A stretch of DNA of 46,940 bases from Williamsia herbipolensis (lineage in GTDB: Bacteria; Actinomycetota; Actinomycetes; Mycobacteriales; Mycobacteriaceae). Shown here piece by piece: positions 1 to 24,729 of the stretch. The translations under genes were made by a program, and so were the position numbers. Location of the stretch: positions 1 through 46,940 of the forward strand of contig NZ_JXYP01000037.1 in assembly GCF_000964005.1 (NCBI RefSeq). The letters are read 5' to 3'. Under the pieces are notes generated by a model, which was given only the letters and a program-made list of their open reading frames with translations, was not told the DNA's origin and did no database searches. Position 1 is the stretch's first letter. Every line of letters begins with the position of its first letter.

Positions 1-79
1 GCTCGGCATCAGACTCCAACGCCGTCTCCAACATGCGCACAGATTGCTGCCGGAACTCCGGCGGATACTGACGTGGCAT
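1..79 (-). CDS. IS3-family transposase OrfA, N-terminal 26 residues
   Basis: Reading leftwards from the ATG at 79-77, the protein starts MPRQYPPEFRQQSVRMLETA, the usual beginning of the helix-turn-helix OrfA that recognises IS3-family terminal repeats. A strong AGGAGG lies about 8 nt upstream of the ATG. The rest of the gene lies outside the window. Confidence 0.8.
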   Translation of the reverse strand, partial: MPRQYPPEFRQQSVRMLETALESDAE

Positions 80-127
80 AGCTCCATCCTCCTATAAGGA
101 TCGGAACTAAACCTGGGGTACTTCAGT
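1..127 (-). mobile_element. Left end of an IS3-family element (partial, cut by window edge)
   Basis: The first 127 nt are the terminal part of an insertion sequence that continues to the left. They contain the beginning of an orfA-type transposase on the minus strand, its AGGAGG ribosome binding site (about 87-95), and a terminal repeat at 103-126. The same terminal repeat occurs inverted at 46815-46838, where the opposite end of a same-orientation copy begins. Only the ends are visible, so the exact IS name cannot be given. The IS3 assignment rests on the OrfA start here and on the OrfB C-terminus at the other end of the window. Confidence 0.85.
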
Positions 128-541: not shown

Positions 542-1957
542 TCAGCGCCGTGATGCGTTGGGTGGGCTTTTGTGTTTGGTCTCAGGAGCGCCATGCCTTC
601 TAGGCGAGCGACTTGAGGAGTCTTCTTTCAGTACCGTCCAGATGGCGAGGATCAGGCATGCGAGTACGCATCCGAGTGCAGTGACGAGCAGGGCTGTAGT
701 GGTCGCGGCGTGTGAGCCCCCGCTGTCCTGTTGCGTGACGGCGCCTGACAGTCCGATGCCTAGCCCGGCTGCGACTGTAATTACGGTCTTAGTTACTCCG
801 GATGCTTCCCCTGCGCGTTCGGGTTTGATCACCGCTTGGGTCGCGGTGAGTGTCAGCGAATTGCCTAAGCCCAGAACCACGCCTCCAGATGTGGCGGCGA
901 CCAGGTAAACAGGTAAGTTCGGGGCCCAAGCCAGAGTGAGGAGGCTGAGCGCTCCGATCGCAAGACAAACAAGCATTACTGGCACAGCGCGCCGGGAAGA
1001 GACGCGCCCCGCGAGTGGTCCAGCAAGTGCCATGGCCGTTGCGGGGGCGAGAAAGACAACGCCTGCCAAAGCGACGGATAGAGTCCATATGCCTTGCAGG
1101 GATAGAGGAACGATGAAGAGAAACATGACGGTTGCGGTGTTGGCTACTGCGCCAGCGAGGGTGAGAGCCACATACGGGGTGTTGCGGAACAGGGCTAGTT
1201 CGATCAACGGGTTTGCCGTCGCCCGTTCGTGCCTCACGAATATTCCCCCCACTGTTCCGGCGGCAATCAGGCCGACTACGACCGGAGGCCACGACCAATG
1301 GGAGCTTCGGTCGACCACTACCGCTAGGACGGCGAGTGCCGCCGTGACTGTCGCGAGTCCGCTCCAGTCGACTTTGCGATCTGCCTTGGCGTCGTAACTC
1401 TCCGTGGTACGGGTCGCTGCTAAGGCGCCAATCAGAGCGAGTGGAACGTTGAGCCAGAAGACGGCTCTCCAGGAGGAGTGGTCGGTAAGGACGCCGCCGA
1501 TAAACGGGCCGAAAGCGGTTGCAACGCCGCCGATCCCAAGCGCTGCGCCAATGGCGCGTGTCCGCAAATTGCCCGGATATAGGTTGGTGAGCAGGGATAG
1601 GCCTACCGGCATGATCATGGCTGCCCCCGCGCCTTGTGCTATTCGCGCACACACAAGAACCGGAAGTGTAGGGGCCAACGCGCAGAGCAGGGAGGATCCT
1701 CCAAAGAGCGTGAGGCCCAGCAAGAGTAGTTTGCGCCGTCCGAACAAATCGCCGAGGCGGCCGGCGCCGAGCATGAAGGTGCCCGTCGATAGCAAGTACG
1801 CGCTGATCACCCATTGAAGTCCGCCACCACTGACCTCTAGGTCACGGCCGATCTGAGGTATCGCGAGATTTAGGGCGAAGGAATCGAGTTGTATGCAGAA
1901 GACACCCACTGACACTGCCAGTAAGGCCCAGCGTCGGGCGGTAGGCGTGGTGGCCAT
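542..1957 (-). CDS. bcmT: MFS drug exporter (DHA2/EmrB-QacA-like), likely bicyclomycin exporter BcmT
   Basis: This 471-residue inner-membrane protein has the hydrophobic pattern of a 12-14 helix drug:H+ antiporter. Motif A (GRLGDLFGRRK) lies after the second helix, and a GPFIGG motif typical of antiporter motif C lies in the fifth helix region. The C-terminal tail of about 30 residues is polar and basic. The ATG at 1957 has GAAGGGAA about 9 nt upstream. It is divergent from the bcm biosynthetic genes with 430 nt between them. Bicyclomycin clusters carry an MFS gene called bcmT, so export and self-protection is the natural role here. The symbol is given by context; specific orthology with a characterised BcmT was not tested. 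Confidence 0.75.
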   Translation of the reverse strand: MATTPTARRWALLAVSVGVFCIQLDSFALNLAIPQIGRDLEVSGGGLQWVISAYLLSTGTFMLGAGRLGDLFGRRKLLLLGLTLFGGSSLLCALAPTLPVLVCARIAQGAGAAMIMPVGLSLLTNLYPGNLRTRAIGAALGIGGVATAFGPFIGGVLTDHSSWRAVFWLNVPLALIGALAATRTTESYDAKADRKVDWSGLATVTAALAVLAVVVDRSSHWSWPPVVVGLIAAGTVGGIFVRHERATANPLIELALFRNTPYVALTLAGAVANTATVMFLFIVPLSLQGIWTLSVALAGVVFLAPATAMALAGPLAGRVSSRRAVPVMLVCLAIGALSLLTLAWAPNLPVYLVAATSGGVVLGLGNSLTLTATQAVIKPERAGEASGVTKTVITVAAGLGIGLSGAVTQQDSGGSHAATTTALLVTALGCVLACLILAIWTVLKEDSSSRSPRRHGAPETKHKSPPNASRR

Positions 1958-2387
1958 AGCCGGCGTTCCCTTCGTCGCGCTGCCGGGGCAGCGTCGTTTC
2001 TGGCACTTGATTCGATCGTGAAGGCCTCAGTTGCCATCAGTTGAGGAACCCACCATTAGGGCTGATGACGGTCAAAACCGCGCGTGCGGCGGCTTGCTGA
2101 AGACGAGTGAGTTCCGGTGCGACGGAAGCGATGCGCCTCAGGAACGTGGGCGTGCGCGCACGGCGTTCGCTCGTTTTGACGCCGCCCTAGAACCGTCACG
2201 CTAGCTGAATCGCCGGCCCTTGACAAGGTTAGCGGCGGCAAGCAAATGGCTTGACTCGTTCGTATGCCTTGCTAACCCGGTGTGGACCTGTACAGGTGTA
2301 AGTCAGTCGCCGAGCGCCCACAGCCTGGGGCGGCGCATCTTCAAGCGGACATGACTCGGCAACGCGACGGATTGGGCGGACGCAGAA
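1958..2387. promoter_or_regulatory. Divergent control region between bcmT and bcmA
   Basis: These 430 nt separate the leftward exporter from the rightward biosynthetic operon and must hold promoters for both. A TTGACA hexamer occurs at 2219-2224, but I see no convincing -10 box at the right distance. No regulator gene lies in the cluster itself. The small open frames here are not supported as genes. Confidence 0.45.
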
Positions 2388-3131
2388 TTGATAGACGCAC
2401 AAACGCTCTCTACTGTTGGCCCGCGCGAAGAGCCAACTCGCAGAAGGCGTTACAAGACTGAGGTCGCGGCTGTTTCTCCCGAAACAAGCAGGGCCACGTT
2501 CGACAACCACGATTCATGTTTTCTTGGTGTGAGCTTGGAGAACTCGAACTTCGCGCCATCAAAGCTCGAAAGCATGGTGAAGTGGATCTCACGCCGGTTC
2601 AAGCACTGCACAGTCCTTGTTGGCGACAGCATCCATCGAATAACCCTTGAGTCAACCGCGGAATGTTCGCCCACAGTCGCCCGCGCCACAGCCTTAGAGC
2701 TGGGTCAGCAATTCATCGACGACAACCAGGCCTTATTCGACTTCTATGGCGACGAGACGGAATTCTCGTTCCTGAGGTGCAGCGATGTGCAGGTTTGGGA
2801 GGAGTACGACAAATTCCACACCCAGCTGCAAGCGCTGTTCAAATCAGACAGCGAGTTTCTGGCATCGGTCGAATCGTTTGGCCGTGCGTATCACGGGAAA
2901 CACTCGAGTGATGTTGGCGAGGCCGAGTTCGAGGCGCGAGCTGACATGTCCAGCGCTTACTTTCTTGAAGAATTCGCTATCTTCGCGTGTCTCCAAAAGC
3001 GCGACCTTCCGGTGATGGTATATCCCGGATCTTTCAGCACGTTATCCGAAATTGCCGCCGGGCTCCATAAATCTGCGCCGAGCGAGCTGCAGGAGTTGAT
3101 CGTAGTGTCTCTCCACCTGAAAGGTAAGTGA
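2388..3131 (+). CDS. bcmA: Cyclodipeptide synthase, BcmA-like (cyclo-Leu-Ile former)
   Basis: The 247-residue product fits the cyclodipeptide synthase family, which makes diketopiperazines from two aminoacyl-tRNAs. The GVSLENSNF motif at 47-55 holds the catalytic Ser49, equivalent to Ser37 of AlbC. AYFLEEF at 190-196 gives Tyr191 and Glu195, at +142 and +146 from the serine; the AlbC pair Tyr178/Glu182 is at +141 and +145. A YP pair at 212-213 lies near the position that divides the NYH and XYP subfamilies. The start is a TTG at 2388. The gene is followed after 10 nt by five 2OG oxygenases and a P450, which points to BcmA, the maker of cyclo(L-Ile-L-Leu), the bicyclomycin scaffold. Substrate identity is inferred from context. 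Confidence 0.88.
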   Translation: MIDAQTLSTVGPREEPTRRRRYKTEVAAVSPETSRATFDNHDSCFLGVSLENSNFAPSKLESMVKWISRRFKHCTVLVGDSIHRITLESTAECSPTVARATALELGQQFIDDNQALFDFYGDETEFSFLRCSDVQVWEEYDKFHTQLQALFKSDSEFLASVESFGRAYHGKHSSDVGEAEFEARADMSSAYFLEEFAIFACLQKRDLPVMVYPGSFSTLSEIAAGLHKSAPSELQELIVVSLHLKGK

Positions 3132-3141
3132 GGATTCGTAA

Positions 3142-4140
3142 ATGAAAATATTGCCGTCAGGTCCAGACATACGTCGCGGTAAGATCTACCGCGACGTATA
3201 CCAAAAGCGGTCGAACTCTGAAAGTGCTGTCGGTGAAGCTCGTATTGAGCGGGCGAGAATTGTTGACAACGAACTTTATTTCCCCAGCCCAGAGGCGAAG
3301 GATCGAGCGTTCGGGGACGGAGTGTTTTTCCTGGAAATTCCTGACAAGTTGGACGTGTCGGTCGGCGACACCTTCTCTGAGTAATTCTACCAAGGGCCTT
3401 CGCTCAAGCCGTATGGAAAATTCCGGGATATTCACAGCGAACACTTCGATGATCCGCTACTTGGGTACCATCAACGCGTCAACCAAATCGAGCAGTTTCT
3501 ACTAGAACGGCGTTTCTGGTCTACCGACTACCCGACGGAAATTGCCGGTCTCGGCGAAGGGCTCACGCGGTTGTCCCAACAAGTCTTATGCTCAGCACTA
3601 TCCTATATTGGAGTACCTGAACGGGACTGGTCTCAAGCCACCGGCGACTGCTCAAACTCATCCGGCTCGTACCATCTGACCTTTAACCATTATCGGCCCG
3701 CCCATGACGATATCGGGCTGAACTCTCACAAGGACGATGGCTTTCTCACAATACTTCGAACAAGAACTCTCGGTCTTGAAATCGCGAGGGGTGACCAATG
3801 GGAATTCGTTCCGGTGGATCCGAGTTGCTTCGTGATCAACTTTGGGTTGTCGATGGAGATCTTATCTGCGCAAAGCAAGAGGCCAGTTGCCGCGATCATG
3901 CATCGCGTAGCGAGGCAGCAACGTGACCGCTGCAGCTGCGGGCATTTTAGCTCAAGCGGATGTTTACCTGGAGAGGACCGCGGTGTCTATCGCTACACCG
4001 ACGAACACGGACTGCAGAGGGTCTGCGGATCTCGTGAGCTGATTGACGAGAACGACTACGAAATTTACGCCGGCACCGAGGCGCCTACTACGCAACCCGC
4101 ATCACCGCCGACCAGCCGTGCCCACGAGGAAAACCGATGA
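3142..4140 (+). pseudogene. bcmB: BcmB-like Fe(II)/2OG oxygenase with an in-frame TAA at codon 81
   Basis: The frame starting at ATG 3142 (GAGGA 7 nt upstream) stops at TAA 3382-3384. The same frame then stays open to 4140, giving 332 codons, the family length. Residues on both sides of the stop align with the paralogues: GDTFSE-stop-FYQGP here against GDRFAQSFYRP in BcmG. The lesion is therefore a substitution (a Ser codon TCA to TAA would suffice), not a frameshift. Downstream, the iron triad His196/Asp198/His254 and the 2OG-binding Arg263-x-Ser265 are intact. In the known pathway BcmB acts in forming the oxygen-bridged bicycle. The gene overlaps bcmC by 4 nt. It may be a recent nonsense mutation, a sequencing error or, less likely, a readthrough gene. 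Confidence 0.85.
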
Positions 4141-5045
4141 CCGGCACGTCTTTGGCGCTGCAACGCGGCAGAGTTCTAGATGGCGCTCTCAGGTTTTCGA
4201 CAGACGGCGGACTGTCGCAAGCTCTACGCGACGGGTGCTTCGTGCTCGAAGCGCCCAGCGATTTCGACCCGTTGCCCGGGGTCACACTGTGTCGCGAATT
4301 CTTCCGCGCATCAGATGAAGGCGCAGAAGAGACTCGTCGATACCGCGGCTACCGGGACCATGAAGGCCTCTACTTTGATCGGGAACACTTTCAAACCGAG
4401 CACCTGCTCATTGATGGACCTGAACGACGCAGACACTTCCCGCCGGAGCTACTGTCGATGACCGAGCAGATGAGTGCGCTCACGTTGGTTGTTCTCCAGG
4501 CTGCTATGACAGAGTTGGGGATTGTTCGGCGCCTGTGGAGTGAGATCACCGGCGGCGCGGTCGACGGCGAGGGCACGCATTGGTTCGCGGCGAACCATTA
4601 CCGCTCCGACCGCGCCCAGCTTGGCTGCGCCCCGCACAAAGACACCGGGTTCGTGACTGTGCTCTACAACGAAGAACCGGGACTGGAAGCGTCTGTCGAC
4701 GGCCGGTGGGTCCCCATCGACCCTGTGCCCGATCACTTCATTGTGAATTTTGGGGGGGCCTTTGAGCTTCTCACCGCAGCTCTCGACCGGCCGGTACGGG
4801 CAATCTTGCACCAAGTGCGGCAGTGCAAGCCAGAGCAAGGGACAGACGATCGATTTTCGTTTGCGGCCTTCGCCAACCCCCCTGCCGACGGGACTCTTTA
4901 CCAGGCGCGCCAGGACGGCTCCGCTGTTGCAGTGCGCACTTGTGCCGACTTCCTCCGAGAGTTCAACGAGCAAACTTGGTCCGACCGCCATGTGGACTTC
5001 GGAATTGGTCAGCAGGCCGTGACGTCCAGTACCGAACCGTTATGA
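4137..5045 (+). CDS. bcmC: BcmC-like Fe(II)/2-oxoglutarate hydroxylase
   Basis: This 302-residue protein belongs to the isopenicillin-N-synthase-like 2OG oxygenases. The iron ligands are His167 and Asp169 (APHKDTGF) and His225 (AILHQV); the 2OG carboxylate is held by Arg239-x-Ser241 (DRFSF). A conserved NHYRSD element at 153-158 precedes the triad, as in all five paralogues of the cluster. In bicyclomycin biosynthesis this position encodes one of the hydroxylases acting on the Leu-Ile diketopiperazine. Both ends are translationally coupled: ATG 4137 overlaps the bcmB stop, and its own stop overlaps the bcmD ATG. Naming rests on gene order; the exact carbon hydroxylated cannot be read from the sequence. 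Confidence 0.83.
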   Translation: MTGTSLALQRGRVLDGALRFSTDGGLSQALRDGCFVLEAPSDFDPLPGVTLCREFFRASDEGAEETRRYRGYRDHEGLYFDREHFQTEHLLIDGPERRRHFPPELLSMTEQMSALTLVVLQAAMTELGIVRRLWSEITGGAVDGEGTHWFAANHYRSDRAQLGCAPHKDTGFVTVLYNEEPGLEASVDGRWVPIDPVPDHFIVNFGGAFELLTAALDRPVRAILHQVRQCKPEQGTDDRFSFAAFANPPADGTLYQARQDGSAVAVRTCADFLREFNEQTWSDRHVDFGIGQQAVTSSTEPL

Positions 5046-6613
5046 GAGCGAACACAGGCAGAGGAATGCCGAGCGCTTACGGCGGCGATGTCGTCGTGGC
5101 GTCACCTGAGCCGCCCAGTGCGCCGTTTCCTGGTCTAGTCGCACACCACGAGGGCCCCAGTAAAGTCCATGGGCACGCCGACGCCCTGCATGAGGCGACG
5201 GTGACAGGTGGTGAACCGGTCTCGGACTACTTCCGCCGAAGTGGCATCAGCGCTTTAGCGGAGGCCAGCGGAGGCATGTGCACGTTTTGGATGGGCTCGC
5301 GGTTGGCGCTATACCAGATCACTAACACGCCCCTGGTTATCGACGCGGTCCTCGCGCCGTCAACCGAGGCGAACCGTGAGCTGTTCGGCGATTTCATGGG
5401 TTCGATGCCCCACGACCATCCAGGCCGCCCCGCGAGGCGCATCGCGGTCGAACGCTCGCTCGGCAACGCAAAATTCGTAGCAAACCTAGAACCTGCCATC
5501 CGCCAAAACACAGCAACTTTTCTGCAGCAGCAGACAGGGCGAAAAAATTCACTTGAGGACTTCACTCTATCGCTAACTGCTTATGTGGACAGCATGATTC
5601 CGGGAGTGCTCGACCTCAGTCAGCACCCTATCACCAGCTATTTGAAGTCTGAACAGTATGGCCCGGTAGTTCGCGGGTTCTTTGATTTGGCATCGGATGT
5701 TATCAGTAATGATAATCCCGATGCTATGAAAGAATTTGACGTCATTGTGCCGTTCGTCCGTCAGCTACTCTTGGAAAACCTGGCGCCACTCATGAAAGCG
5801 CCAGCGGCGAACATGATCCGGCGGTACTTCGATCTATGGGGTCTAGCTCTCGATCGTACGAATATCGAGGCGCTTGACTCCTCAAAGCTGAAAGAGCTCG
5901 GCACAATAATTATCGCAACCTACGACACCAGTGCCTTAAGTTTGATGTGGGCGATTGCCTATATTGAGAGCACGCCTCAGGTGAAGGGCGAGATCATTGC
6001 GCAAGCTCGGAGCGATGTGGCGCAAGAAAAAGGCCCAGGTGGTGACGCGACTCTAAGTGTGATTGATCTCGCGGTACTTGAGGCAGTTCGCCTTGGCGGC
6101 AGCAATCCAAGTGCGCTTTGGCGCCGGACCACTGAGCCAGTCACTATCTCCTTCCGCGACTCGGCGGTGACAATTCCGCCGGACACCATGCTTTGGTTGG
6201 ATCGTCGGCAAGCAAATCGCGATCCAGCAATTTTCCCTGAGCCGGCTGCGTTCTCGCCCGCAAACATCAGGTCCATATACCGGTCGGAACGTGAGACGCT
6301 GTCGTCCCTGCTTTCCCGAAGTCGCTATGAGATAAATTCGTTCAGCATGATCAATGCCGAACGTAACCCGCGGAAGTGTCCAGGACGACTATTCTCGGTG
6401 CGGATGCAATCAATAGTGCTATCCGAACTATATGGCGACTATCGCGTCATCACGAATGGCCACAACCTGGACCTGAAGCCGTACGCATCCATGCCCAGGC
6501 CGACGCAACCAGGAACAGTCGAGATCCTGCCTATCAACAAGGAGCGATCAATTGACAGATTTAACTTCCCAGGCCACACGAAGAAAGGCCGTACGACTCC
6601 CGGTAATGCCTAG
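5042..6613 (+). CDS. bcmD: BcmD-like cytochrome P450 with a divergent heme loop
   Basis: The frame is open from 4823, but the ATG at 5042 overlaps the bcmC stop as ATGA and gives a 523-residue protein, long for a bacterial P450. The I-helix motif is ATYDTS at 292-297, the K-helix ExxR is Glu347-Ala-Val-Arg350, and the heme thiolate is Cys446 in NPRKCPG. The usual Phe at Cys-7 and Gly at Cys-4 are missing (Ala439, Asn442), while Arg444 and Gly448 are kept. This divergence explains why the gene could be missed by simple motif searches. BcmD is the single P450 of the bicyclomycin pathway and hydroxylates a late intermediate. No ferredoxin is encoded in the cluster, so electrons must come from elsewhere. 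GC content is visibly lower than in the flanking regions. Confidence 0.85.
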   Translation: MRANTGRGMPSAYGGDVVVASPEPPSAPFPGLVAHHEGPSKVHGHADALHEATVTGGEPVSDYFRRSGISALAEASGGMCTFWMGSRLALYQITNTPLVIDAVLAPSTEANRELFGDFMGSMPHDHPGRPARRIAVERSLGNAKFVANLEPAIRQNTATFLQQQTGRKNSLEDFTLSLTAYVDSMIPGVLDLSQHPITSYLKSEQYGPVVRGFFDLASDVISNDNPDAMKEFDVIVPFVRQLLLENLAPLMKAPAANMIRRYFDLWGLALDRTNIEALDSSKLKELGTIIIATYDTSALSLMWAIAYIESTPQVKGEIIAQARSDVAQEKGPGGDATLSVIDLAVLEAVRLGGSNPSALWRRTTEPVTISFRDSAVTIPPDTMLWLDRRQANRDPAIFPEPAAFSPANIRSIYRSERETLSSLLSRSRYEINSFSMINAERNPRKCPGRLFSVRMQSIVLSELYGDYRVITNGHNLDLKPYASMPRPTQPGTVEILPINKERSIDRFNFPGHTKKGRTTPGNA

Positions 6614-7499
6614 TGAGCACGAGGCACTCGAAAGGTATTCGGCAATAGATCTCGAACGGTGCAAACTGCAAGACGGTGAGTTGATATTCAGCCGTGCGGG
6701 AGCATTCGAGCGGGCATTAGCACAGGGATTCTTTCTCCTGCAGATGCCCGAAGGTATTAAGCCCGCCGTGGGCGACCAGTTCGCGGCGCATTTTTTCGAG
6801 GACAAAAAAGGAGACGACCTCGATCGGTACCGCGGGTATCGGGAGGTCGAGATCCCTGGGTCTTACCAGGGCTACTTCGACCGTGCGCATGACCAGTGGG
6901 AAAACCTTTACATCGAGCAATCCAACTGGTTGCTTCTTCCGGCAGACATTGCTGAGCTAGGTCGCTGCATGGCTGATCTCGGTATACAGGTCCTCCGAGC
7001 AGTCTTTCGACAACTTGAGATCCCAGAAGGCACGTGGGACCTGATTTCGAGTGGGCTATCCGAGAATCAGGGGCACCAGATGCTTGCCTTCAACCACTTC
7101 CGGTCTGACAAAGCCACACGAGGGTGCAAGTTTCACCGCGACTCAGGCTGGGTCACCGTCCTGCGATCAACGGAACCAGGTCTGCTCGGTTTGATCGAAG
7201 GGGAACTAGGAACCATTAACCCGGTTGAAAGCTATTTCATCGTCAACTTCGGTAGTTCCATGGAGGTCCTCACCGCCGATCTACCTACGCCGGTGCGCGC
7301 CAACATTCACGGCGTAGTCGCCACTGAGCGGGCCGCCCCGCAGCCTGACCGCGTCTCGTATGTCACCTTCCTGGATTCAAGCTTGGATGGCGATATCTAC
7401 AGCCTCGACAGCGCAGGTACACCACACCGCATCCAATCAGTGGCCGACTTCGCCACCCAGGAAGTGAGTCGCACATACGACGACGACCTCAATCTGTGA
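6552..7499 (+). CDS. bcmE: BcmE-like Fe(II)/2-oxoglutarate hydroxylase
   Basis: This is a 315-residue 2OG oxygenase with His195/Asp197 (FHRDSGW), distal His253 (NIHGVV) and Arg267-x-Ser269 (DRVSY). The TTG at 6552 is chosen because AAGGAG at 6539-6544 sits 7 nt before it; the next candidate, ATG 6606, lacks a comparable site. With the TTG start it overlaps the end of bcmD by 62 nt. In the reconstituted bicyclomycin pathway BcmE makes the first hydroxylation of cyclo(Ile-Leu). The paralogue most like it by eye is BcmG (both have SGWVTVLRSTEPGL). Assignment to BcmE is by position in the operon. Confidence 0.83.
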   Translation: MTDLTSQATRRKAVRLPVMPSEHEALERYSAIDLERCKLQDGELIFSRAGAFERALAQGFFLLQMPEGIKPAVGDQFAAHFFEDKKGDDLDRYRGYREVEIPGSYQGYFDRAHDQWENLYIEQSNWLLLPADIAELGRCMADLGIQVLRAVFRQLEIPEGTWDLISSGLSENQGHQMLAFNHFRSDKATRGCKFHRDSGWVTVLRSTEPGLLGLIEGELGTINPVESYFIVNFGSSMEVLTADLPTPVRANIHGVVATERAAPQPDRVSYVTFLDSSLDGDIYSLDSAGTPHRIQSVADFATQEVSRTYDDDLNL

Positions 7500-7526
7500 A
7501 CCAACAGCCCAAAAGAAGGATTAGTT

Positions 7527-8417
7527 ATGACCACCCAGACGAGTCACGATCACTTAGTTTTAACGCTTCCCGCGGCACGAGTGGACGGCGGAAAACTTCA
7601 GTTCGAGTCTGATGACGATTCGAACCGAGCCCTCCGCATTGGAGCCTTCAACCTCCAGATACCGGCAGACCTGGATCCAGGCGCTGGCCTAGAGTTCTGT
7701 CGCAGCTTCTACCAGCCAGCCACCGACGCCGCCGACCGCCAACGCGGACATCGTGAACACGGCCATCCCGAATCAAAGCTGGGTTATGAAGATCGACCAG
7801 ACCAAGTAGAGCAGCTGCAACTCGAGAACTTCCTGTGGTCGCGGTACCTGCCAGATCGCCTCACGACTGTTCTTCGCAAGCTGGAACAGCTGACGCAGAC
7901 GACCCTTGACGGCGTCTTTGATGCAGCCGGAATCTCGAAAAGTGACCGCGAGGTCGTCACCGGCGGCATCGGTGGCCCGCTGTGCTACACAACCGTCAAC
8001 CACTATCGAGCTGGACTGACCGACCGAGCCGGAATCGTAGAGCATTCGGACAGCGGGTTCATCACCACGATCTGCACGGATCAACCTGGCTACGAGATCC
8101 TCCACGATGGCAACTGGATGCCCGTCCGTGAACGAGCAGGCCATTTCATAGTCAATCTCGGAGACGCCTTCGAGGTCTTAACGGCCAACTACGCAGACCC
8201 AGTCTCGGCTGTCTACCACCGCGTTCCCGAATTACGTCCCGATGCCGCGGGCAGAACACCAGACCGATCGTCGTTCACCATCTACATGGGCCCGCGATAC
8301 GACATGGACCTCTACCAGTACGACGCAGACGGCACACTGCAGATGTTCCAAGGCTTCCGCGAATTCTCGGTGGAGAAAGCGGGCAAGCTTGGCTACGACT
8401 TCCACTCACGCATATGA
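7527..8417 (+). CDS. bcmF: BcmF-like Fe(II)/2OG oxygenase (exomethylene-forming step)
   Basis: The 296-residue product has His173/Asp175 (VEHSDSGF), distal His231 (AVYHRV) and the Arg247-x-Ser249 motif, so a catalytic iron site is expected. Its triad segment differs from the others (EHSDSG instead of HKDSG), which fits a different chemistry. In bicyclomycin biosynthesis BcmF carries out the last step, desaturating dihydrobicyclomycin to the exocyclic methylene. ATG 7527 follows AGAAGGA at a good distance, 27 nt after bcmE. Its stop overlaps the bcmG ATG by 4 nt. The reaction is inferred from gene order. Confidence 0.83.
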   Translation: MTTQTSHDHLVLTLPAARVDGGKLQFESDDDSNRALRIGAFNLQIPADLDPGAGLEFCRSFYQPATDAADRQRGHREHGHPESKLGYEDRPDQVEQLQLENFLWSRYLPDRLTTVLRKLEQLTQTTLDGVFDAAGISKSDREVVTGGIGGPLCYTTVNHYRAGLTDRAGIVEHSDSGFITTICTDQPGYEILHDGNWMPVRERAGHFIVNLGDAFEVLTANYADPVSAVYHRVPELRPDAAGRTPDRSSFTIYMGPRYDMDLYQYDADGTLQMFQGFREFSVEKAGKLGYDFHSRI

Positions 8418-9343
8418 GTGCGGGACAGGAGTCAGGGCGGTTGGACGCCACGGACAACTGGCAACTAGCCCAGCTACAAGGTGAAGACCTCGTCTTCACC
8501 ACCACAGACGGTCTCGCCCGAGCGCTGACTGACGGGTTCTTTTACGTCCAACAGCCAACAGGCCTGGATCTAGCGGCCGGCGACCGCTTCGCCCAGAGCT
8601 TCTATCGCCCTCTCGAAGGTGGGGCCGGAGACCCGTACCGGGGTTACCAGCAGTGGACATCAGACCAACTAGGTCCACACCAGGGCTACTTTTCTCGCGA
8701 CGCCGATCAGACCGAACAGTTCTTCCTGGAAAGCGCCAACTGGAAGCGCGCTTACCCCACCGCGCTTGTCGAACAAGCCCACGGGATGCGTGACCTCGCT
8801 CTGAGAATCGAGCGTGCGGTGCTCACTCACCTCGACATACCCCGCGAGCTCTGGACAGAGGCAACGGGCCACAGCCTGACGCCCGAGGGAACGCACACGC
8901 TAACGTTCAACCACTTCCGACCCGAAATCGCAGCTCGCGGTCTTAACATTCATAAAGACTCGGGATGGGTAACGGTACTGCGATCAACCGAACCGGGACT
9001 CGAAGTGGACCGGGGCGACGGCGACTGGGTACCTATCAATCCGATCCCGGGAACATTTATTGTCAATTTTGGATGCGCAATGGAGATTCTGACCCGGGAA
9101 ACAAAAACACCCGTCGCCGCTGTAGCGCACCGCGTCGTGCAACAACCTTCTGAACAGCACGCCGCCAAGCCCGATCGCTTCTCATACGCGCTGTTCGTCG
9201 ATAGCAGCCTTGATAAGTCCGTGTGCCCTGGACTCTTCACTTACAAGCCAAACTCCGGTCTGCACTTAGAAAAATCTGTGGACGGCTTCCTCGATCAAAT
9301 ACTGGACAACACGTATAGAAGGGACACCGCGGGCTTGTACTGA
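8414..9343 (+). CDS. bcmG: BcmG-like Fe(II)/2-oxoglutarate hydroxylase
   Basis: This 309-residue protein is the fifth 2OG oxygenase of the operon. The iron ligands are His180/Asp182 (NIHKDSGW) and His239 (AVAHRV); Arg255-x-Ser257 (DRFSY) binds 2OG. It starts with an ATGA overlap on bcmF and is the last gene of the cluster. In bicyclomycin pathways BcmG is one of the three early hydroxylases. The IS110 element begins within about 60 nt of its stop codon, so any natural terminator or further 3' gene may have been displaced. The reading frame itself is undamaged. Confidence 0.83.
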   Translation: MSAGQESGRLDATDNWQLAQLQGEDLVFTTTDGLARALTDGFFYVQQPTGLDLAAGDRFAQSFYRPLEGGAGDPYRGYQQWTSDQLGPHQGYFSRDADQTEQFFLESANWKRAYPTALVEQAHGMRDLALRIERAVLTHLDIPRELWTEATGHSLTPEGTHTLTFNHFRPEIAARGLNIHKDSGWVTVLRSTEPGLEVDRGDGDWVPINPIPGTFIVNFGCAMEILTRETKTPVAAVAHRVVQQPSEQHAAKPDRFSYALFVDSSLDKSVCPGLFTYKPNSGLHLEKSVDGFLDQILDNTYRRDTAGLY

Positions 9344-9349: not shown

Positions 9350-10700
9350 ATCAACACGGCTGCCGCAGTGGCTGCCGAGCCCAAGGGGTGGTGCAGTTGT
9401 CTTCACGCTGCAGCCAGGTTCTCGGTCGTGTTGTCGTGTTGCATTGTGCGCCAAATCTGTTTAGTGATTTGGCGTTTGAGACAGCGTTGGGCTTCGCGAC
9501 GAGTCTTGCCCTCAGTGATCTTTCGGCGGTAGTACGAATAACCCGGTGCTGAGGGGTGCCGGGATTGGCTGACGGCGATGATGTGGATGACGGCGTTGAG
9601 TTTGCGGTCGCCGCTGCGGGATAGTCGGTGACGGTTGTGATCGCCGGAGGACACGTCGATGGGTGCGGTGCCGACGTAGGAGGCGAATGCGGCTTCGCTG
9701 GCGAACCGGGTTGGGTTGCCGATGCGGGCGACAAGGCGGGCGGCACAGATAGGCCCCACACCTGCAATGCTGGTCAGGGTGGATCCGCTGGCCTCGAGGG
9801 CGGTGATGATTCGCTCGGTGAGCTCGTCGAGTTGGAAGCGCAGCCGGCGCAGATCGCCGATGATCTCCAGGGCAACGGTTTTCCGCATCTCGTCTGCCGG
9901 GGTGGCGGGCTGGTGAGTGACAACGATGTGACGGATCTGCTCGACGCGCTGATTGGTTGCGACGCCACCGGGCAGGAGTTCGCGCAGGACAGCGTGGAGC
10001 TGGTTGATGACCCGTGAGTGCTGATTGGCGACATCGGTGCGGCGTTCATCGAGTAGTCGGATGATGGCGCGATCGCCATCGGCTTCGACGGGCCGGTAGT
10101 CGGCTTGGGTGAACGCGACACACGCCGCGGCAGCCGCGTCTATACGGTCGGTCTTGCGTCGGCCGCCGCGGGAGAGTTCGCGGACCCGGGCGGTGGCGGT
10201 TGAGGGGACGTCGACGACGGTTTCGCCTGCCTGGATGAGCCATTGGGCGAGGTGGTGGCCAAGTCCTTTGGCGTTCTCGATCGCCCAGACCCGGTCGGGC
10301 CAGGTGGCCGACCAGTCGAGGAGCTGCTGGTAGCCCTCTAGGGTGGACGGGACTCGGAGTGATCCGAGGTCGGTATTGGTAGATGGCTCGACGCTGGTAG
10401 CGGTGTGGCTGAGCTTGTGCGGATCGATCCCGATCACGTGCACTCGGGGCTCCTTGTCGGTAGGTGCGAACAGGATGGGTATCTGTGATCGGCATTCCGA
10501 CTTTCAGGCCCAGCGAGTGGGCGTCATTCCTGTGTTGAGCCAGATCGCAGACGGAGATCACGGTGGGGGCAAAACCCTCCGAGAGTCAGGTCCCGGCGCC
10601 AGGACCGGCAGGAAGCTAACGAGCCGCCCTCCGTGACTCCTCGTCAGGTTAAAACCCGGTTGGTTCGAACACCCGACGTACTTCCCATACAAGTCGGAAG
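9350..10700 (-). mobile_element. IS110-family insertion sequence (approximate limits)
   Basis: The element consists of the transposase gene at 9403-10443 plus a short flank on its 3' side and about 250 nt of non-coding DNA on its 5' side. IS110 elements lack clear inverted repeats, so the ends are estimated from the last base of bcmG (9343) and the beginning of the methyltransferase fragment (10703). It separates the bcm cluster from the scar zone to its right. Confidence 0.7.
9403..10443 (-). CDS. IS110-family transposase (DEDD recombinase)
   Basis: The 346-residue protein starts MHVIGIDPHKLSHTATSVE, with the first acidic residue of the RuvC-like DEDD domain in IGIDPHK. RRKTDRIDAAAAACVA, around residue 100, carries two further Asp residues of that domain. 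The C-terminal transposase-20 domain is clear from SIAGVGPICAARLVARIG through ASYVGTAPIDVSSGDHNR and RSGDRKLNAVIHIIA, and includes the catalytic serine region. The length is normal and the frame is intact, so the element may be active. IS110 recombinases use a structured bridge RNA from the element's non-coding end to choose target and donor sites. Confidence 0.92.
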   Translation of the reverse strand: MHVIGIDPHKLSHTATSVEPSTNTDLGSLRVPSTLEGYQQLLDWSATWPDRVWAIENAKGLGHHLAQWLIQAGETVVDVPSTATARVRELSRGGRRKTDRIDAAAAACVAFTQADYRPVEADGDRAIIRLLDERRTDVANQHSRVINQLHAVLRELLPGGVATNQRVEQIRHIVVTHQPATPADEMRKTVALEIIGDLRRLRFQLDELTERIITALEASGSTLTSIAGVGPICAARLVARIGNPTRFASEAAFASYVGTAPIDVSSGDHNRHRLSRSGDRKLNAVIHIIAVSQSRHPSAPGYSYYRRKITEGKTRREAQRCLKRQITKQIWRTMQHDNTTENLAAA

Positions 10701-10702: not shown

Positions 10703-10975
10703 ATGAAGTCACCGAGAGGCCGGCTCAAACTGACATGGATGGGCAAGGACCTTGTTCTAGTCCCGTCCGAAGTCGACAAGTACGACTACGAAAGGGTAGG
10801 TGGCGCACACGATGCAGATCAGAACCTGCTTATCGTGGGTGACTCGGGTGATGCCCCGTATTCGCTCGGCACAATTCCGGAGTGGTCCGACAGTAAACGC
10901 GGCACCGTCAAGTTGTATTACATCGATCCGCCGTGTAACACCGGTCAGGCTTTAGATCACTACGCCGCCGCTCGC
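10703..10975 (+). pseudogene. DNA methyltransferase (type III Mod-like), N-terminal fragment
   Basis: The frame starts MKSPRGRLKLTWMGKDLVLV and reaches VKLYYIDPPCNTGQALDHY, a recognisable N6-adenine methyltransferase catalytic motif (DPPxNTG, with Cys in place of the usual Phe or Tyr). Homology stops at about 10970; the normal enzyme continues for several hundred residues. The remaining open frame runs as unrelated sequence to 11050, where its TGA overlaps a possible ATG of the next P450. It lies next to the IS110 5' end, so insertion and deletion probably destroyed a restriction-modification gene here. No restriction subunit is visible. Confidence 0.7.
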
Positions 10976-11046
10976 CCAAGAATTCAGGCCGTGCCTGCGG
11001 ATGAGCCAAAGCACCGGGTGTCTGGATCCCTCGATGGGAATCACCG

Positions 11047-12860: not shown

Positions 12861-12900
12861 ATGCGCATCGCACTCGACATTCCTCGACTTGGACTTACCA

Positions 12901-15900
12901 TTACCGTCTAGTCAATCTGCTCTCGTGGTGCTGCCGGTCAATATTTCCCGGCCACCAGCTTGCCTTGCCCAGCAGAACTGCCAGTGCAGGGACAACCAGT
13001 GTTCGAACCACGAACGTGTCCATCAGAAGACCGGCCGCGACAATTACACCGATCTGGACCATGACGTCAATGGACCCGAAAGCCAACCCGAACATGCTAG
13101 CAGCGAAAATCAATCCCGCTGAGGTGATCACGGATCCAGTGTGGGCGACGGTCCGCAGTACGCCGAGCCGAACGCTGTCAGAAGTCTCCTCTCGTAGCCG
13201 CGACACCAGCAACATATTGTAGTCCGCGCCCACTGCCACAAGAACGATGAACGAAACCAGCGGAACCGGCCAGGATATCGAAGCTCCGAGCAAGTTTTGA
13301 AATACTAGGACCCCAATCCCGAGCGCGGCGAGATAATTGAGGACCACCGTCGCGAGAAGATAGATTGGTGCGACGATAGCTCTCAGCAGAATCATCAGAA
13401 TCAGCCCCACGATGAGCAGGGTGGCAATTCCCAATAGCTTGAAATCGTAAGAAAGCAGACGCTGGACATCCGCGTTGATGGCCGGGAATCCGGCTACGGA
13501 AGCGCGGGCGCCCTCGAGAGAAGTATTTGGCATCGCGCCTTCGGCAACCTTTGAAAGCGTGTTCGCCAAGCGAATGGCATCAGCCGTGTACGGATCGTAA
13601 CCAGTCTGTACCGCGAACCGTACAGTCTTCCCGTCCGGCGAGATGAACTGTTTTGCGACCTGACTGAACTGCTGATCCTTGAAGGCGTCGGCAGGAAGGT
13701 AAAAGCCGGTTGCCGAGTCCGAGTTGCCGATATCACGGGCGGGCGCTCGTAGTTGCGCTGCCACCTGCGACAGTCCTGCGAGCAACTGCACATTGCTGTC
13801 CACCAAAGCGGCCACACCACCCGACAATTGACGGGCGCCGTCGGCCAGCGCGCCGACTCCTGTCTCGAGCTGGGACAGCCGGCTGGTGAGGTCTTGGCCG
13901 TTGATGGTCTGTAGCGCGGAGTCGAGGACATTCAATGAGTCCCGCAGCTGTGCGACATCCGCGGCGCCCGGCGCGCGGATCCCGCCGAGGTTCGTGGCGA
14001 AGTCCGCGAATCGAGTGAGCGACTGGTTCTCGGCAAGTGAGCGAATGTCGGCTGTCTGGGTCCGCAAGGCGGAACACTGGGGAATCTGCCGGCACCACGG
14101 GGCGTCGAGCGCGTTCAATGCGGGAGCGACGGTGTTGGCTGCCGACTGCGCCTGCCGAGCCAGTCTCGCCAGCTGTGGCGCCTGTTGTGAGAACTGGTCG
14201 AGAGCTGGTGCGGCGCTTGCGAGCTCGTCCACCAACGGCCGGTACTGACTGAGTTGCCCGCCCGCGGCGGAGGCCTGACCGAGCAGACCTCCCAGTGGCG
14301 CCAGATTGGTGGTGATCTGGTCCCTCAGAAGTGCGAGGCCACCTGCGAGCTGCGAGGACCCCGTCTTCAGGAGATCGAGGTCACCTTTGCGCGCTTGTGC
14401 GCCTCCGGTTTGCTCGGTGATCTTGTTGCCGATCTGATCGTTCTGCCATGACAACTGGGCCTGCTGAAGTTTCTCGCCGGTCGGACGTGTAACGCCGATG
14501 ACCCGTGTGACTCCTGGTGTTTGTGCGACTCGCGAGGCCATCTGATCGAGATCGGCGAGACCTTGAGCGGTGCGCATGTCCTTCGTGGACTCCACGATCA
14601 GGAATTCGGAGATTATGGTGTCTTTGGGAAAGTGTCGGTTGAGAAGGGCGTAACCCTCGTTACTCTCCGTAGAGGCGGGTTGACCCTCTCGATCGTCGTA
14701 CGTGATCGTCATAGTGGTTGCGATGAGACTGAGGCCGATCAGCGCCACGATACTGACGGCGAGGAGTTGCACCGGCCGCCTGACGACGATGGTCCCCACG
14801 CGATGCCAGTATCGCCGCGTCAAGTCTCTGCGAGGCAGCCCCGCACCATGTTTCGCGGCAAATGACAGCACTGCAGGCAGCAACGTGACTGTTGCCAGGA
14901 AGCCGATTAGGATCGCGATTGCGCACGCTGGTCCCAGCGTTCTGAACACGCTCAGTTTCGCGAACGCCATCGATAGAAACGCCAAGGCGACAGTCGCTGC
15001 CGACGCCAAAACCACGCGTCCGATGGTCCCGTTGGCCTGCGCAATCGCGACATCTGGCGTGCTGCCGGAGCGGATGGCCTCGTGATATCTGCTTATCAGG
15101 AACACGGAGTAGTCCACTCCTGCACCGAAGATGATCACCGTCATGAACATCGAGGTGAACTGGGATACGGGCATACCAATCTCACCAAGTCCGGACAGGA
15201 CGCCCCGACCTACCGCAAGGCTCATCACCACCACAAGCAGCGGCATCACGGCGGTGAACAACGATCGATAGACGATAAAGAGAATCGCGGCGATCATGAA
15301 CACGGTGGCGAGGGTGATCACGAGTAGATCTGATTCGCCCACCTTGATTTGATCGCTGAAAGTTGCCGGCGGGCCAGTGATCCGCACAGTGGTTCCGGAA
15401 CCGTCGAAGGTTCGGTCCGCGACGTCGCGAACCGAATCCACGGAGTCTGCGGCCTTCGGACCACCCAGCGTTCCCTGCAGCGAAACCGGCAGGTACCACG
15501 CCTTCTTGTCGCTGCTCAGCGCCTGACTCTCGGTGAGCGGATCACCGAGGAGGTCACGTACAGCAATGACGTGCTCGCGATCGGCATTCAGCGCATTTAC
15601 CATCTCGCCGTACTTGCCCCGCGTTTCCGCGTCCAGTCCACCCTTGTTTTCCATGGCCACGAACACGGTGGTCTTCGCGCCGCGCTCGTTGAACGCAACT
15701 CCCATCCGGTCGAGCGTCTGGAACGACGGGACGCTGGCCGGGATCGGGTCCACGGACTGGTCTCTGATCACCGACTCGAGCTGAGGAAACAGCAGAGCAA
15801 GCCCACCGGCGATGATGATCCACACCAATGCCACGACACCCTTACGCCGCAAGACTAGCCAGGCCAACTTCTCCAGCAGGGCGCTGTACTCGCCGCTCCC

Positions 15901-15963
15901 AGCCGACTTCTTCGACGATGGTTTCGGGGACGGACCGTTGTCCACGGTCGACGCGCTAGGCAC
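12901..15963 (-). CDS. MmpL/RND-family lipid transporter
   Basis: This 1020-residue membrane protein has the RND layout: one helix near residues 42-60, a periplasmic domain, a block of helices (about 210-365), a second periplasmic domain with a long helical insertion (about 455-760), and a second helix block to the C-terminus. The proton-relay Asp-Tyr pairs of MmpL proteins are present as Asp284-Tyr285 (GVDYSVFLISRYHE) and Asp914-Tyr915 (GADYNMLLVSRLREE). MmpL proteins export lipids or lipid-like metabolites across the mycolate-bearing envelope. The start is GTG 15963 with GAGAGGAAA upstream. It is 107 nt downstream of the DUF4873 gene in the same direction, which suggests that it exports or handles the product of the oxidative cluster opposite. 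Confidence 0.92.
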   Translation of the reverse strand: MPSASTVDNGPSPKPSSKKSAGSGEYSALLEKLAWLVLRRKGVVALVWIIIAGGLALLFPQLESVIRDQSVDPIPASVPSFQTLDRMGVAFNERGAKTTVFVAMENKGGLDAETRGKYGEMVNALNADREHVIAVRDLLGDPLTESQALSSDKKAWYLPVSLQGTLGGPKAADSVDSVRDVADRTFDGSGTTVRITGPPATFSDQIKVGESDLLVITLATVFMIAAILFIVYRSLFTAVMPLLVVVMSLAVGRGVLSGLGEIGMPVSQFTSMFMTVIIFGAGVDYSVFLISRYHEAIRSGSTPDVAIAQANGTIGRVVLASAATVALAFLSMAFAKLSVFRTLGPACAIAILIGFLATVTLLPAVLSFAAKHGAGLPRRDLTRRYWHRVGTIVVRRPVQLLAVSIVALIGLSLIATTMTITYDDREGQPASTESNEGYALLNRHFPKDTIISEFLIVESTKDMRTAQGLADLDQMASRVAQTPGVTRVIGVTRPTGEKLQQAQLSWQNDQIGNKITEQTGGAQARKGDLDLLKTGSSQLAGGLALLRDQITTNLAPLGGLLGQASAAGGQLSQYRPLVDELASAAPALDQFSQQAPQLARLARQAQSAANTVAPALNALDAPWCRQIPQCSALRTQTADIRSLAENQSLTRFADFATNLGGIRAPGAADVAQLRDSLNVLDSALQTINGQDLTSRLSQLETGVGALADGARQLSGGVAALVDSNVQLLAGLSQVAAQLRAPARDIGNSDSATGFYLPADAFKDQQFSQVAKQFISPDGKTVRFAVQTGYDPYTADAIRLANTLSKVAEGAMPNTSLEGARASVAGFPAINADVQRLLSYDFKLLGIATLLIVGLILMILLRAIVAPIYLLATVVLNYLAALGIGVLVFQNLLGASISWPVPLVSFIVLVAVGADYNMLLVSRLREETSDSVRLGVLRTVAHTGSVITSAGLIFAASMFGLAFGSIDVMVQIGVIVAAGLLMDTFVVRTLVVPALAVLLGKASWWPGNIDRQHHESRLTRR

Positions 15964-15992
15964 GTGTCTTGTTTCCTCTCGAACAATTGGTC

Positions 15993-16041
15993 ATGCAAAA
16001 GTCCAGTGAACTGCAACGGGCCAATGAGGAGAGTTTTGCAT
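15993..16041. repeat. 8-bp inverted repeat between DUF4873 and mmpL
   Basis: ATGCAAAA at 15993-16000 and TTTTGCAT at 16034-16041 are exact inverted repeats 33 nt apart, in the 107-nt gap between the DUF4873 stop and the mmpL start. They could form a leader hairpin in the mmpL transcript or be two half-sites for a regulator. The evidence is only the symmetry. Confidence 0.3.
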
Positions 16042-16070
16042 TCACCCCGAAACGGCCGTCTGCAGTCAGA

Positions 16071-16412
16071 TCAGCTGTGGTGTTCGCTCTCGGCGATTGC
16101 TTCCACCTCTTCGAGAGTGCTCGGTACGTGATACGGCGGGCGGCTCTTGCCGCTCAGCCGGTAGCGGCCCCAGAAATCGACGTCGCCGACGACGCATTCG
16201 GCGCGTCCCTCGGGCGTCGAGACCACCGCCACCGTTCGTTTGCCCTGCAGCACGGCGTCGAGCTCGGCGTTCTTGGCTATCCGGCCGTACCAGGTGTAGA
16301 GGCCGTTGAGCGGCTGAAAATAGCCCTTGATCTTGAGATCGACAGGGATCTCCTTCCCTCGGCATGCCAGCACCGCTTCGCCGGAGTAGTCGAGATCGTG
16401 GTCGTCTGACAT
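16071..16412 (-). CDS. DUF4873 domain protein
   Basis: This 113-residue soluble protein is recognised as a DUF4873 domain from features such as GEAVLACRGKEIPVDLKIKG and QPLNGLYTWYGRI, and a C-terminal GDVDFWGRYRLSGKSRPPY. In actinomycetes this domain is often found fused to or beside flavin-dependent Baeyer-Villiger monooxygenases. Here it is a separate gene divergent from an AurF-BVMO operon, which fits an accessory or ligand-binding role in that pathway, but its function is unknown. It is the first gene of a leftward unit with mmpL. Confidence 0.75.
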   Translation of the reverse strand: MSDDHDLDYSGEAVLACRGKEIPVDLKIKGYFQPLNGLYTWYGRIAKNAELDAVLQGKRTVAVVSTPEGRAECVVGDVDFWGRYRLSGKSRPPYHVPSTLEEVEAIAESEHHS

Positions 16413-16462
16413 TGGGTCTCACCTTCGTACATCGCCGTTGACAAGTTGGAACTTCTTGAGAA

Positions 16463-16489
16463 TACTAGCAGTACCGGGTACTACTGGTA
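16463..16489. promoter_or_regulatory. 27-bp imperfect palindrome, probable operator
   Basis: The arms TACTAGCAGTACC (16463-16475) and GGTACTACTGGTA (16477-16489) match in 11 of 13 positions around a central G; the inner AGTACC-G-GGTACT is perfect. It lies between the start of DUF4873 (16412) and the start of the AurF-like gene (16539), where one dimeric repressor could control both directions. The TetR-family protein at 22131-22874 is the nearest candidate. A partly similar sequence (CTGGTAA plus ATACT, 22111-22127) lies just upstream of the tetR start. Confidence 0.6.
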
Positions 16490-16538
16490 ACAGATACTCG
16501 CGCAGCTGATCCCAAAACCACGAACACATGGAGCGCAG

Positions 16539-17507
16539 ATGACCGTTCAAGACGCTGAAATCAAGCCGAACTTTTCCACCGAGGGCCTTGCGCGAGTCAA
16601 CACGCGCAAGCCTGTTGACATGCAGCGCTCGGCCGGTCGCTTGCTGCGCTCGTCAGCCGAGAAATCCTACGATGCCGAGATTGACATCGATTGGGATTCG
16701 CCGTGGGAAGACGACAAGCGTTTCCTGCCTGAACACAGGGTGTCGCTCTACGGTTCGAAGCTGTGGGACAAGATGACCGACGAGCAGAAGTTCGAGCTGG
16801 GCCGGCACGAGATCGCAAGCATTCTGAGCTTCGGGATCTACGCCGAGAACTTGCTGAGCTCAGCTCTCCTGCGAACCACCGCCAAGGGGGCGATCACCGA
16901 CGAGCGTTCGTTGTACTCGCTAACAGAGGTCGGTGATGAATCGCGTCACTCGATCATGTTCGCCCGTCTGATCAACAAGATGGGCATCGAGCCCTACCGT
17001 TTGCCCAGGGGTTTCCTCAGCTTCGCCAAGATTCTTCATTTTGTCCCGCTCGGTCCCTCGGTCTCTGGTGCGACTCTGCTGATCGAGGAGATCCTCGATC
17101 GCGCTCAGCGTGAGGCGATGAGTGACCCCGAGATGCAGCCGCAGCTGCGTCAGCTGATGAAGATCCATGTGCTCGAGGAGGCTCGGCACATCACGTTCGC
17201 GCGGCTGGACATGGTCGAAGGAATGCAGCGTCGTGGCAAGATCTCCCGAGCGTGGCACCGCGGAGTGCTCGCAGTGATCGCCAATCTCGCATACCCGCTG
17301 CTGATCAACCCAAAGGTGTACCCGGCCGTGGGCATCGGCCGCCTACGTGGCGTGTTCGCACAGCAGACCAGCCCGCACTACCGCGTGAACCTTCAGTTCA
17401 TGTCAGAACCCATGATCCGGTTCTTCCACGAGGCCGGCATGATCGAGGGCAAGTTCACCATGGCGATGTGGCGCGCGACCCGCAGCCTTCCCGACGACCT
17501 TCGGTGA
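16539..17507 (+). CDS. AurF-like di-iron oxygenase
   Basis: This 322-residue protein belongs to the AurF (p-aminobenzoate N-oxygenase) family of ferritin-fold di-iron enzymes. The ligand set is visible: Glu103 (YAEN), Glu134 and His137 (GDESRH), Glu183 or Glu184 (LIEEIL), then His210, Glu214 and His217 (IHVLEEARH). The His-x3-Glu-x2-His spacing equals that of AurF (His223, Glu227, His230), and Glu134/His137 matches Glu136/His139. It is the first gene of the rightward operon, with GGAG before ATG 16539. Electrons could come from the reductase encoded at 20033-21103. The substrate is unknown; hydroxylation, N-oxygenation and decarboxylation all occur in related enzymes. Confidence 0.85.
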   Translation: MTVQDAEIKPNFSTEGLARVNTRKPVDMQRSAGRLLRSSAEKSYDAEIDIDWDSPWEDDKRFLPEHRVSLYGSKLWDKMTDEQKFELGRHEIASILSFGIYAENLLSSALLRTTAKGAITDERSLYSLTEVGDESRHSIMFARLINKMGIEPYRLPRGFLSFAKILHFVPLGPSVSGATLLIEEILDRAQREAMSDPEMQPQLRQLMKIHVLEEARHITFARLDMVEGMQRRGKISRAWHRGVLAVIANLAYPLLINPKVYPAVGIGRLRGVFAQQTSPHYRVNLQFMSEPMIRFFHEAGMIEGKFTMAMWRATRSLPDDLR

Positions 17508-17512
17508 CTGAT

Positions 17513-17533
17513 CGTTGATCCAACGGATCAACG
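17513..17533 (+). terminator. Perfect 9-bp hairpin 5 nt after the AurF-like gene
   Basis: CGTTGATCC (17513-17521) and GGATCAACG (17525-17533) pair perfectly around a 3-nt loop, starting 5 nt after the stop codon. There is no U run. It may partly terminate or stabilise the first gene's message and so set its level apart from the downstream BVMO gene. Confidence 0.5.
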
Positions 17534-17610
17534 CTCAGGCCATGCATCACGCCTGCACCTCCCTGTCTCATTTGCATCGCGAACACTCGTTAATTTAGGA
17601 GTATCAATCA

Positions 17611-19128: not shown

Positions 19129-19169
19129 ACAGTGCATGTGTTCAATCATCGACAGAGTGGGTTTACAAA

Positions 19170-22007: not shown

Positions 22008-22130
22008 GCGTGTGGCGTACCAGCAGATTGCAGTGTGATTGAACGGCGGTGCCCACGCCTGCGATGCAGGTCCTCGAGGATGACCCAGGCTCGGTGGTTG
22101 GGTCGCACCGCTGGTAATCTCGATACTGAT

Positions 22131-22874: not shown

Positions 22875-23072
22875 CCCGCTCGATCAGTCCGGATACGCGG
22901 TCGTAACGCTTGGTTAGGCTCTGCTTCGCGATGTGGATACCGGGCTCGATGGTAGGGCGCTCTTGAGAAAATTGTGCTGCCCTCGCTCCAGGAAGTCTGT
23001 ATTCGTTCGATTGAGGCTCGAACGTGGCGCCATACGAAGGTGGCGATCTGATTTGCGAAGGCACGGGCCCTA

Positions 23073-23117: not shown

Positions 23118-23129
23118 GTCTCGGTTCTC

Positions 23130-24720: not shown

Positions 24721-24729
24721 CAGATCAAC

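Follow-up and report, generated by a model that had tools for sequence, protein, structure and literature searches.

We analyzed a 46,940-nucleotide (nt) stretch of DNA from Williamsia herbipolensis (hereafter, the window), which makes up an entire contig (C24) of a 4.74-Mb draft genome, and found that it carries a bicyclomycin (bcm) biosynthetic cluster in which bcmB is interrupted by an in-frame stop codon. With a probability of about 0.72, we interpret this locus as a Gram-positive-type bcm cluster that was acquired horizontally and in which a nonsense codon recently inactivated bcmB, the gene for the ether bridge. The cluster consists of the following features (numbers after model and structure names are E values).

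542 to 1957, minus strand: bcmT, DHA2/EmrB-type exporter of the major facilitator superfamily (MFS), 471 amino acids (aa); Pfam MFS_1, 3.7e-54.
2388 to 3131, plus strand: bcmA, cyclodipeptide synthase (CDPS), TTG start, 247 aa; CDPS, 7e-11; NCBIfam TIGR04539, 1.9e-35.
3142 to 3381, plus strand: first piece of bcmB, 80 codons, from the ATG at 3142 to the in-frame stop.
3382 to 3384, plus strand: in-frame TAA within bcmB, read directly from the sequence.
3385 to 4140, plus strand: second piece of bcmB, 251 codons, with HKD, H, and RCS motifs; 2OG-FeII_Oxy, 1.1e-10.
4137 to 5045, plus strand: bcmC, iron/2-oxoglutarate (Fe/2OG) oxygenase, 302 aa; 8xhp (SsBcmC), 4.6e-131.
5042 to 6613, plus strand: bcmD, cytochrome P450; 9xho (named BcmD), 2.5e-199; p450, 3.2e-9.
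6552 to 7499, plus strand: bcmE, Fe/2OG oxygenase, 315 aa; 8xhy (SsBcmE, T307A mutant), 2.3e-125.
7527 to 8417, plus strand: bcmF, Fe/2OG oxygenase, a desaturase by homology, 296 aa; F clade.
8414 to 9343, plus strand: bcmG, Fe/2OG oxygenase, 309 aa; 8xht (PaBcmG), 3.9e-113.

The bcmB frame (3142 to 4140) is closed by the TAA after 80 codons, and its HxD, H, and RxS motifs all lie 3′ of the stop. An earlier note on this DNA, made from the sequence alone, had described a complete-looking bicyclomycin-type cluster here. The gene set it named was recovered in place, with matches to MFS_1, CDPS, 2OG-FeII_Oxy (five), and p450 (one) that were far above chance. A His-x-Asp, a later His, and an Arg-x-Ser are also present in all five oxygenase frames, as it had reported; those of bcmB, however, stand behind the stop, which is why the cluster seemed complete when read by its motifs. 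Completeness itself did not survive this analysis. Downstream of the TAA, no in-frame ATG, GTG, or TTG occurs in bcmB before position 3571.

We scanned named genomes for BcmG and obtained 13 bcm loci for comparison. The scan relies on exact short peptides, so near records may be missed, and the 13 loci are best regarded as a sample because they include neither the published Mycobacterium chelonae clusters nor the published Williamsia cluster. Wherever a named locus contains both halves of bcmB (10 loci), the frame is open at the stop site, as it is in a mycobacterial locus (L086), giving 11 of 11 such loci among the 14 examined. The first bcmB piece is 36 to 64% identical to the same part of the open genes in the 10 named loci and 59% identical to that in L086. 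To gauge conservation, we counted changes at otherwise invariant alignment columns by a leave-one-out procedure that used actinobacterial rows only and dropped short pieces, the bcmD of L007 among them. The second bcmB piece is changed at 2 of 110 such columns (1 to 7 in its relatives), and the counts for every other gene fall within the range of the relatives. BcmD (12 of 164 columns) and BcmE (5 of 101) are above the nearest Streptomyces loci (0 to 3 for BcmD in L003 to L006 and L009; 0 to 2 for BcmE in L003 to L007 and L009) but inside the range of L008, L010, and L011 (12 to 27 and 3 to 6, respectively). A general decay of the cluster was thus not supported. Since the other genes and both bcmB pieces are so little changed, the stop is either recent or an error of the draft sequence.

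In Streptomyces cinnamoneus, each of bcmB to bcmG is needed for bicyclomycin, as judged by deletion (PMC6934819, accessible text). With bcmB stopped, the seven biosynthetic genes of the window are not all intact, as they would be in a functional cluster, and bicyclomycin production by this strain is therefore not supported. The earlier note's suggestion that the strain or its ancestor made bicyclomycin is supported for an ancestor and not for the strain as sequenced. In the pathway outlined in the same source, the BcmA product cyclo(Ile-Leu) is hydroxylated three times, by BcmE, BcmC, and BcmG, before BcmB forms the ether-bridged bicycle; BcmD acts as a hydroxylase and BcmF as a desaturase. 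Deletion of bcmB in S. cinnamoneus abolishes bicyclomycin and leads to accumulation of compound 5, of molecular weight 274 (PMC6934819). By analogy with these orthologues, the window BcmA would produce cyclo(Ile-Leu) from two aminoacyl-tRNAs, and BcmE, then BcmC, then BcmG would hydroxylate it to the tri-hydroxylated compound 5. Ring closure by BcmB would be blocked, leaving BcmD and BcmF without a bicyclic substrate, and BcmT would export the pathway products. Given the stopped bcmB and the published deletion result, compound 5 is the expected output: if the stop is real and the cluster is expressed, the strain as sequenced would probably yield this open-ring compound and no bicyclomycin. This role of the exporter is tentative: BcmH of S. 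cinnamoneus reportedly confers bicyclomycin resistance in Escherichia coli, yet it is dispensable in the producer (PMC6934819).

That the window holds a true bicyclomycin cluster is, at the level of sequence comparison, strongly supported by solved structures, the oxygenase tree, and gene order. BcmA matches the CDPS structure 9j61 (3.2e-91; next match, 6.4e-8), whose Protein Data Bank (PDB) name is cyclodipeptide synthase only. It is 47 to 65% identical to 11 BcmAs of bcm clusters and 26 to 28% identical to two other CDPSs in our family sample, and thus groups with the BcmAs and not with CDPSs of another kind. Its Y-P motif is common to the 10 other BcmAs compared, including that of L010, to which it is 53% identical. 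In Actinokineospora sp. EG49, which we take to be the strain of L010, the CDPS gives mainly cyclo(Leu-Ile) (cLI; 65.7%) according to the accessible text of PMC5816076. The place of the window enzyme among BcmAs, including the cLI-making one from EG49, supports a specificity for cyclo(Ile-Leu).

Each of the five oxygenases pairs with a single Bcm enzyme. In a tree of 64 rows, from which stretches of 200 aa or less (bcmG of L015 and bcmB of L013) were omitted, clades B, C, E, F, and G had support of at least 100/98 and contained a single window protein apiece, placed near the Streptomyces rows; B was placed by its second piece only. Against solved structures, this second piece best matches 7v2t (7.6e-107; next different enzyme, 1.2e-41). 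The identities of chains 8xhp, 8xhy, and 8xht come from the data availability statement of PMC12089406. BcmF has no solved orthologue (best match, 4.6e-37) and is 52 to 74% identical to nine actinobacterial BcmFs. All seven substrate residues named for SoBcmC in the accessible part of PMC12089406 are kept in the window BcmC, and all 12 substrate-pocket residues inspected in BcmE equal those of wild-type SsBcmE. In BcmG, 8 of 11 pocket positions inspected are kept. Of nine other actinobacterial BcmGs, six share with the window an H in place of R81 and seven share a T in place of H154; position 281 is D in the window, where the same paper gives R281 in one place and the structure chain has N.

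Gene order is that of a bicyclomycin cluster as well. The genes bcmA to bcmG are contiguous with the MFS gene, bcmT is divergent and upstream, and the P450 gene bcmD sits between bcmC and bcmE, that is, between the second and third oxygenase genes. The start of bcmD is uncertain (ATG 5042 or 5066; 5063 to 6613 was used in searches), and its 3′ end overlaps bcmE by 62 bases. Although the earlier note had thought the inverted exporter possibly unusual, the same layout occurs in 6 of the 13 named loci (L003 to L007 and L009) and in L086, and a divergent upstream bcmT is the Gram-positive norm (PMC5930311, accessible text); a new cluster layout is thus ruled out. BcmT is 67 to 71% identical to the divergent bcmT products of these six Streptomyces loci and 49 to 55% identical to those of L008, L010, and L012; its top NCBIfam model is efflux_EmrB, with a score under that model's cut-off.

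Eight of the 13 named loci (L003 to L005 and L008 to L012) are colinear with the window from bcmA to bcmG. The Streptomyces clusters L003 to L005 and L009 are colinear with it from bcmT to bcmG at 60 to 76% identity; they differ in that their bcmB genes are open and their G+C content is 68 to 72%. Gram-negative clusters (that of Pseudomonas aeruginosa in the accessible text of PMC5930311, an incomplete one in Photorhabdus [L013], and one in Paraburkholderia [L014]) encode the same enzyme types where present; L013 and L014 differ from the window in their swapped, Gram-negative E/F order and in having just a weakly similar MFS gene, located downstream. Another locus, in Pseudomonas fragi D12 (L012, 4201 to 12184), is a complete bcm cluster in which bcmE precedes bcmF, as in Gram-positive bacteria, and whose bcmT shares 49% identity with that of the window. 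Unlike L013 and L014, it falls beside Actinokineospora in clades B and F and, with weak support, in a joint tree, which suggests a second cross-phylum transfer of bcm. In Salinarimonas ramus (L015, 10001 to 10318), the match was confined to the C-terminal third of a BcmG-like protein, at 62%.

Among the loci compared, the closest relative of the window cluster is mycobacterial. In 2018, bcm clusters were published for 20 M. chelonae strains and for W. herbipolensis, with the W. herbipolensis cluster grouping with M. chelonae (PMC5930311, accessible text); this published cluster could be the window cluster itself. No bcmA was found in the seven other genomes of the host genus at an E value of 1e-5. 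Among 401 evenly drawn genomes of the family, host included, the only other BcmA matches were the two remote CDPSs (26 to 28%). In 396 genomes of one genus (g29), which includes a genome whose Rho shares 99% identity with M. tuberculosis Rho over the 158 residues compared, we found one true bcm cluster, in genome G475. This is L086, which is complete and has a BcmA 65% identical to that of the window; the other BcmA match in the genus belongs to the remote CDPS pair. L086 shares with the window all eight genes, their order, the divergent bcmT, and a low G+C content (57.6%). It differs in its open bcmB, its proteins are 59 to 76% identical to those of the window, and its surroundings are different: genes for tRNA-Ser and tRNA-Arg at L086, with tRNA genes nearby as reported for M. 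chelonae (PMC5930311), versus insertion sequence (IS) elements and catabolic genes at the window. In a tree of A plus C to G, the window was sister to the G475 cluster (SH-aLRT 100, bootstrap 91), with branch lengths of 0.35 and 0.20, respectively. This tree left out bcmB and L015 and had no bcmA row for L006 or L013 and no bcmD row for L007. The bcm genes of the window have 52 to 61% G+C and the G475 cluster about 58%; nine Streptomyces, Kitasatospora, and Actinokineospora loci have 66 to 72%, and four stretches on other host contigs have 63 to 66%. The low G+C content and adjoining IS elements fit an acquired island, in line with the link between bcm clusters and mobile elements described in PMC5930311.

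Several points count against recent inactivation of an acquired cluster. The stop is known from one draft assembly of one strain; conserved bcmB pieces among otherwise open genes are also what a single sequencing error would leave; the match to 7v2t speaks for BcmB insofar as we infer that this structure is BcmB, an identity not printed for it; and the bootstrap of 91 for the sister pair is below the usual 95. A base-call or assembly error, with the cluster intact and bicyclomycin production possible, is accordingly the alternative to be taken most seriously, although we consider it unlikely. The genome is a draft in 50 contigs, the lesion is a single one without a frameshift, and the motifs and invariant columns of the two pieces are preserved. 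The genome is scored as 100% complete and 0.1% contaminated, figures that say nothing on single bases. Breaks in bcm genes are also seen in 2 of the 13 other named loci, where they may be draft errors too: in Streptomyces sp. NBRC 110035 (L006), the region around 4458 to 4830 has no match to bcmA or the first bcmB piece, and in S. somaliensis (L007), both bcmD and bcmE are broken up across reading frames (6615 to 9034). With both loci broken, loss of bcm genes appears not to be rare.

A real stop could also be bypassed, by read-through, by internal restart, or by another oxygenase performing the BcmB step. The metal and 2OG motifs do all lie in the second piece. TAA is, however, usually an efficient stop codon, and the first in-frame start after it, TTG 3571, would give a protein of 189 aa lacking 143 codons, so we find bypass highly improbable. 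Equally hard to credit, and if anything more so, is the idea that the cluster makes a different oxidized cyclodipeptide for which bcmB was not needed and was lost. BcmA is just 60 to 65% identical to its closest relatives, BcmA enzymes yield side products, and BcmD and BcmE carry more changed invariant columns than their nearest Streptomyces counterparts; these counts are nevertheless matched in L008, L010, and L011, and the substrate residues of BcmE and BcmC are kept throughout. We thus favor recent inactivation of bcmB in an acquired cluster.

We also considered the target of bicyclomycin, the Rho terminator. Replacement of Leu by Met in Rho (Met495 in M. tuberculosis) is reported to confer resistance to bicyclomycin, and M. 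chelonae carries the same change (PMC8828861, accessible text). The host Rho has Leu at this position (495 in M. tuberculosis Rho, 320 in E. coli Rho) and thus shows no self-resistance of this kind, leaving the host without that known target-site protection. Such protection may be unneeded, since Streptomyces producers are believed to cope with a Rho that is itself sensitive (PMC6934819). In 39 genomes of the family (G475 not among them), the main Rho copy has Met in 26 and Leu in 13, the host included. Within the host genus, seven of eight genomes have Leu; in the eighth, G005, Rho is split between contigs and the residue is unreadable. Two genomes encode a second, short Rho with Leu beside a main Met Rho (G022:C19:622247-623368 [L074] and G028:C4:89854-90966 [L075]). 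One might speculate that the loss of bcmB was an adaptive disarmament, in which a host with Leu-type Rho cut the step that makes the Rho-binding bicycle and kept a live open-ring pathway for another role; we give this idea little credence.

The bcm clusters of M. chelonae and W. herbipolensis are already in print, and the cluster of the window is a true and probably inactivated member of this known kind. We found no report of a stopped bcmB in the bicyclomycin literature within reach, which excluded most subscription papers and supplements; PMC10796651 and PMC10499228 speak of bcr resistance genes in their accessible text. What this locus adds is a natural, apparently recent loss of bcmB in an otherwise kept cluster, and with it a ready test of whether hosts retain the pathway without the finished antibiotic. 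Together with the Leu/Met split of Rho in the family, it makes testable whether target resistance decides where a transferred complete pathway survives. It also cautions that a gene with all of its catalytic motifs present can still be stopped.

The surroundings of the cluster contain the following features.

9403 to 10443, minus strand: IS110-family transposase gene, directly after the cluster; NF033542, 1.3e-52, over the cut-off.
10703 to 10986, plus strand: cut-off remnant whose translation has the motif YIDPPCNTG.
1 to 127, minus strand: end of an insertion sequence at the left contig edge, with a 25-base terminal repeat at 103 to 127.
46814 to 46940, minus strand (orientation inferred): end of an insertion sequence of the same kind at the right contig edge, with the repeat at 46814 to 46838.

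A second IS110 copy, 87% identical, lies elsewhere in the genome. The remnant resembles part of an adenine-specific DNA methyltransferase, and we take the insertion sequence at 1 to 127 to be IS3-like from its protein. The repeats at 103 to 127 and 46814 to 46838 are identical and inverted, and more copies stand at the ends of contigs C27 and C35. Because assemblies break at repeat copies, IS ends at both contig edges say little about a composite transposon. BcmG matched none of 72,556 plasmid records at an E value of 1e-20; among 50,697 phage records there was one match, of 37% identity over one third of the protein. These searches, which did not extend to a viral-contig collection, gave no support for a known plasmid or phage as the carrier. 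Across the whole window, Rfam gave no matches and ARAGORN no tRNAs. Considered as a possible empty site, G005, which among the genus members has the block closest to that of the window (window 12879 to 32416, 95 to 97%), is without bcm but rearranged there. At 35790 to 43700, genes for alcohol/aldehyde oxidation, a P450, and a ferredoxin are about 83% identical to Rhodococcus plasmid blocks, and mce genes lie at 24.7 to 31.7 kb; together, these suggest a catabolic island. Of the 39 plasmid records with similar DNA, 31 are from Rhodococcus, which, with the mce genes and MMPL, is consistent with a mycolic-acid host.

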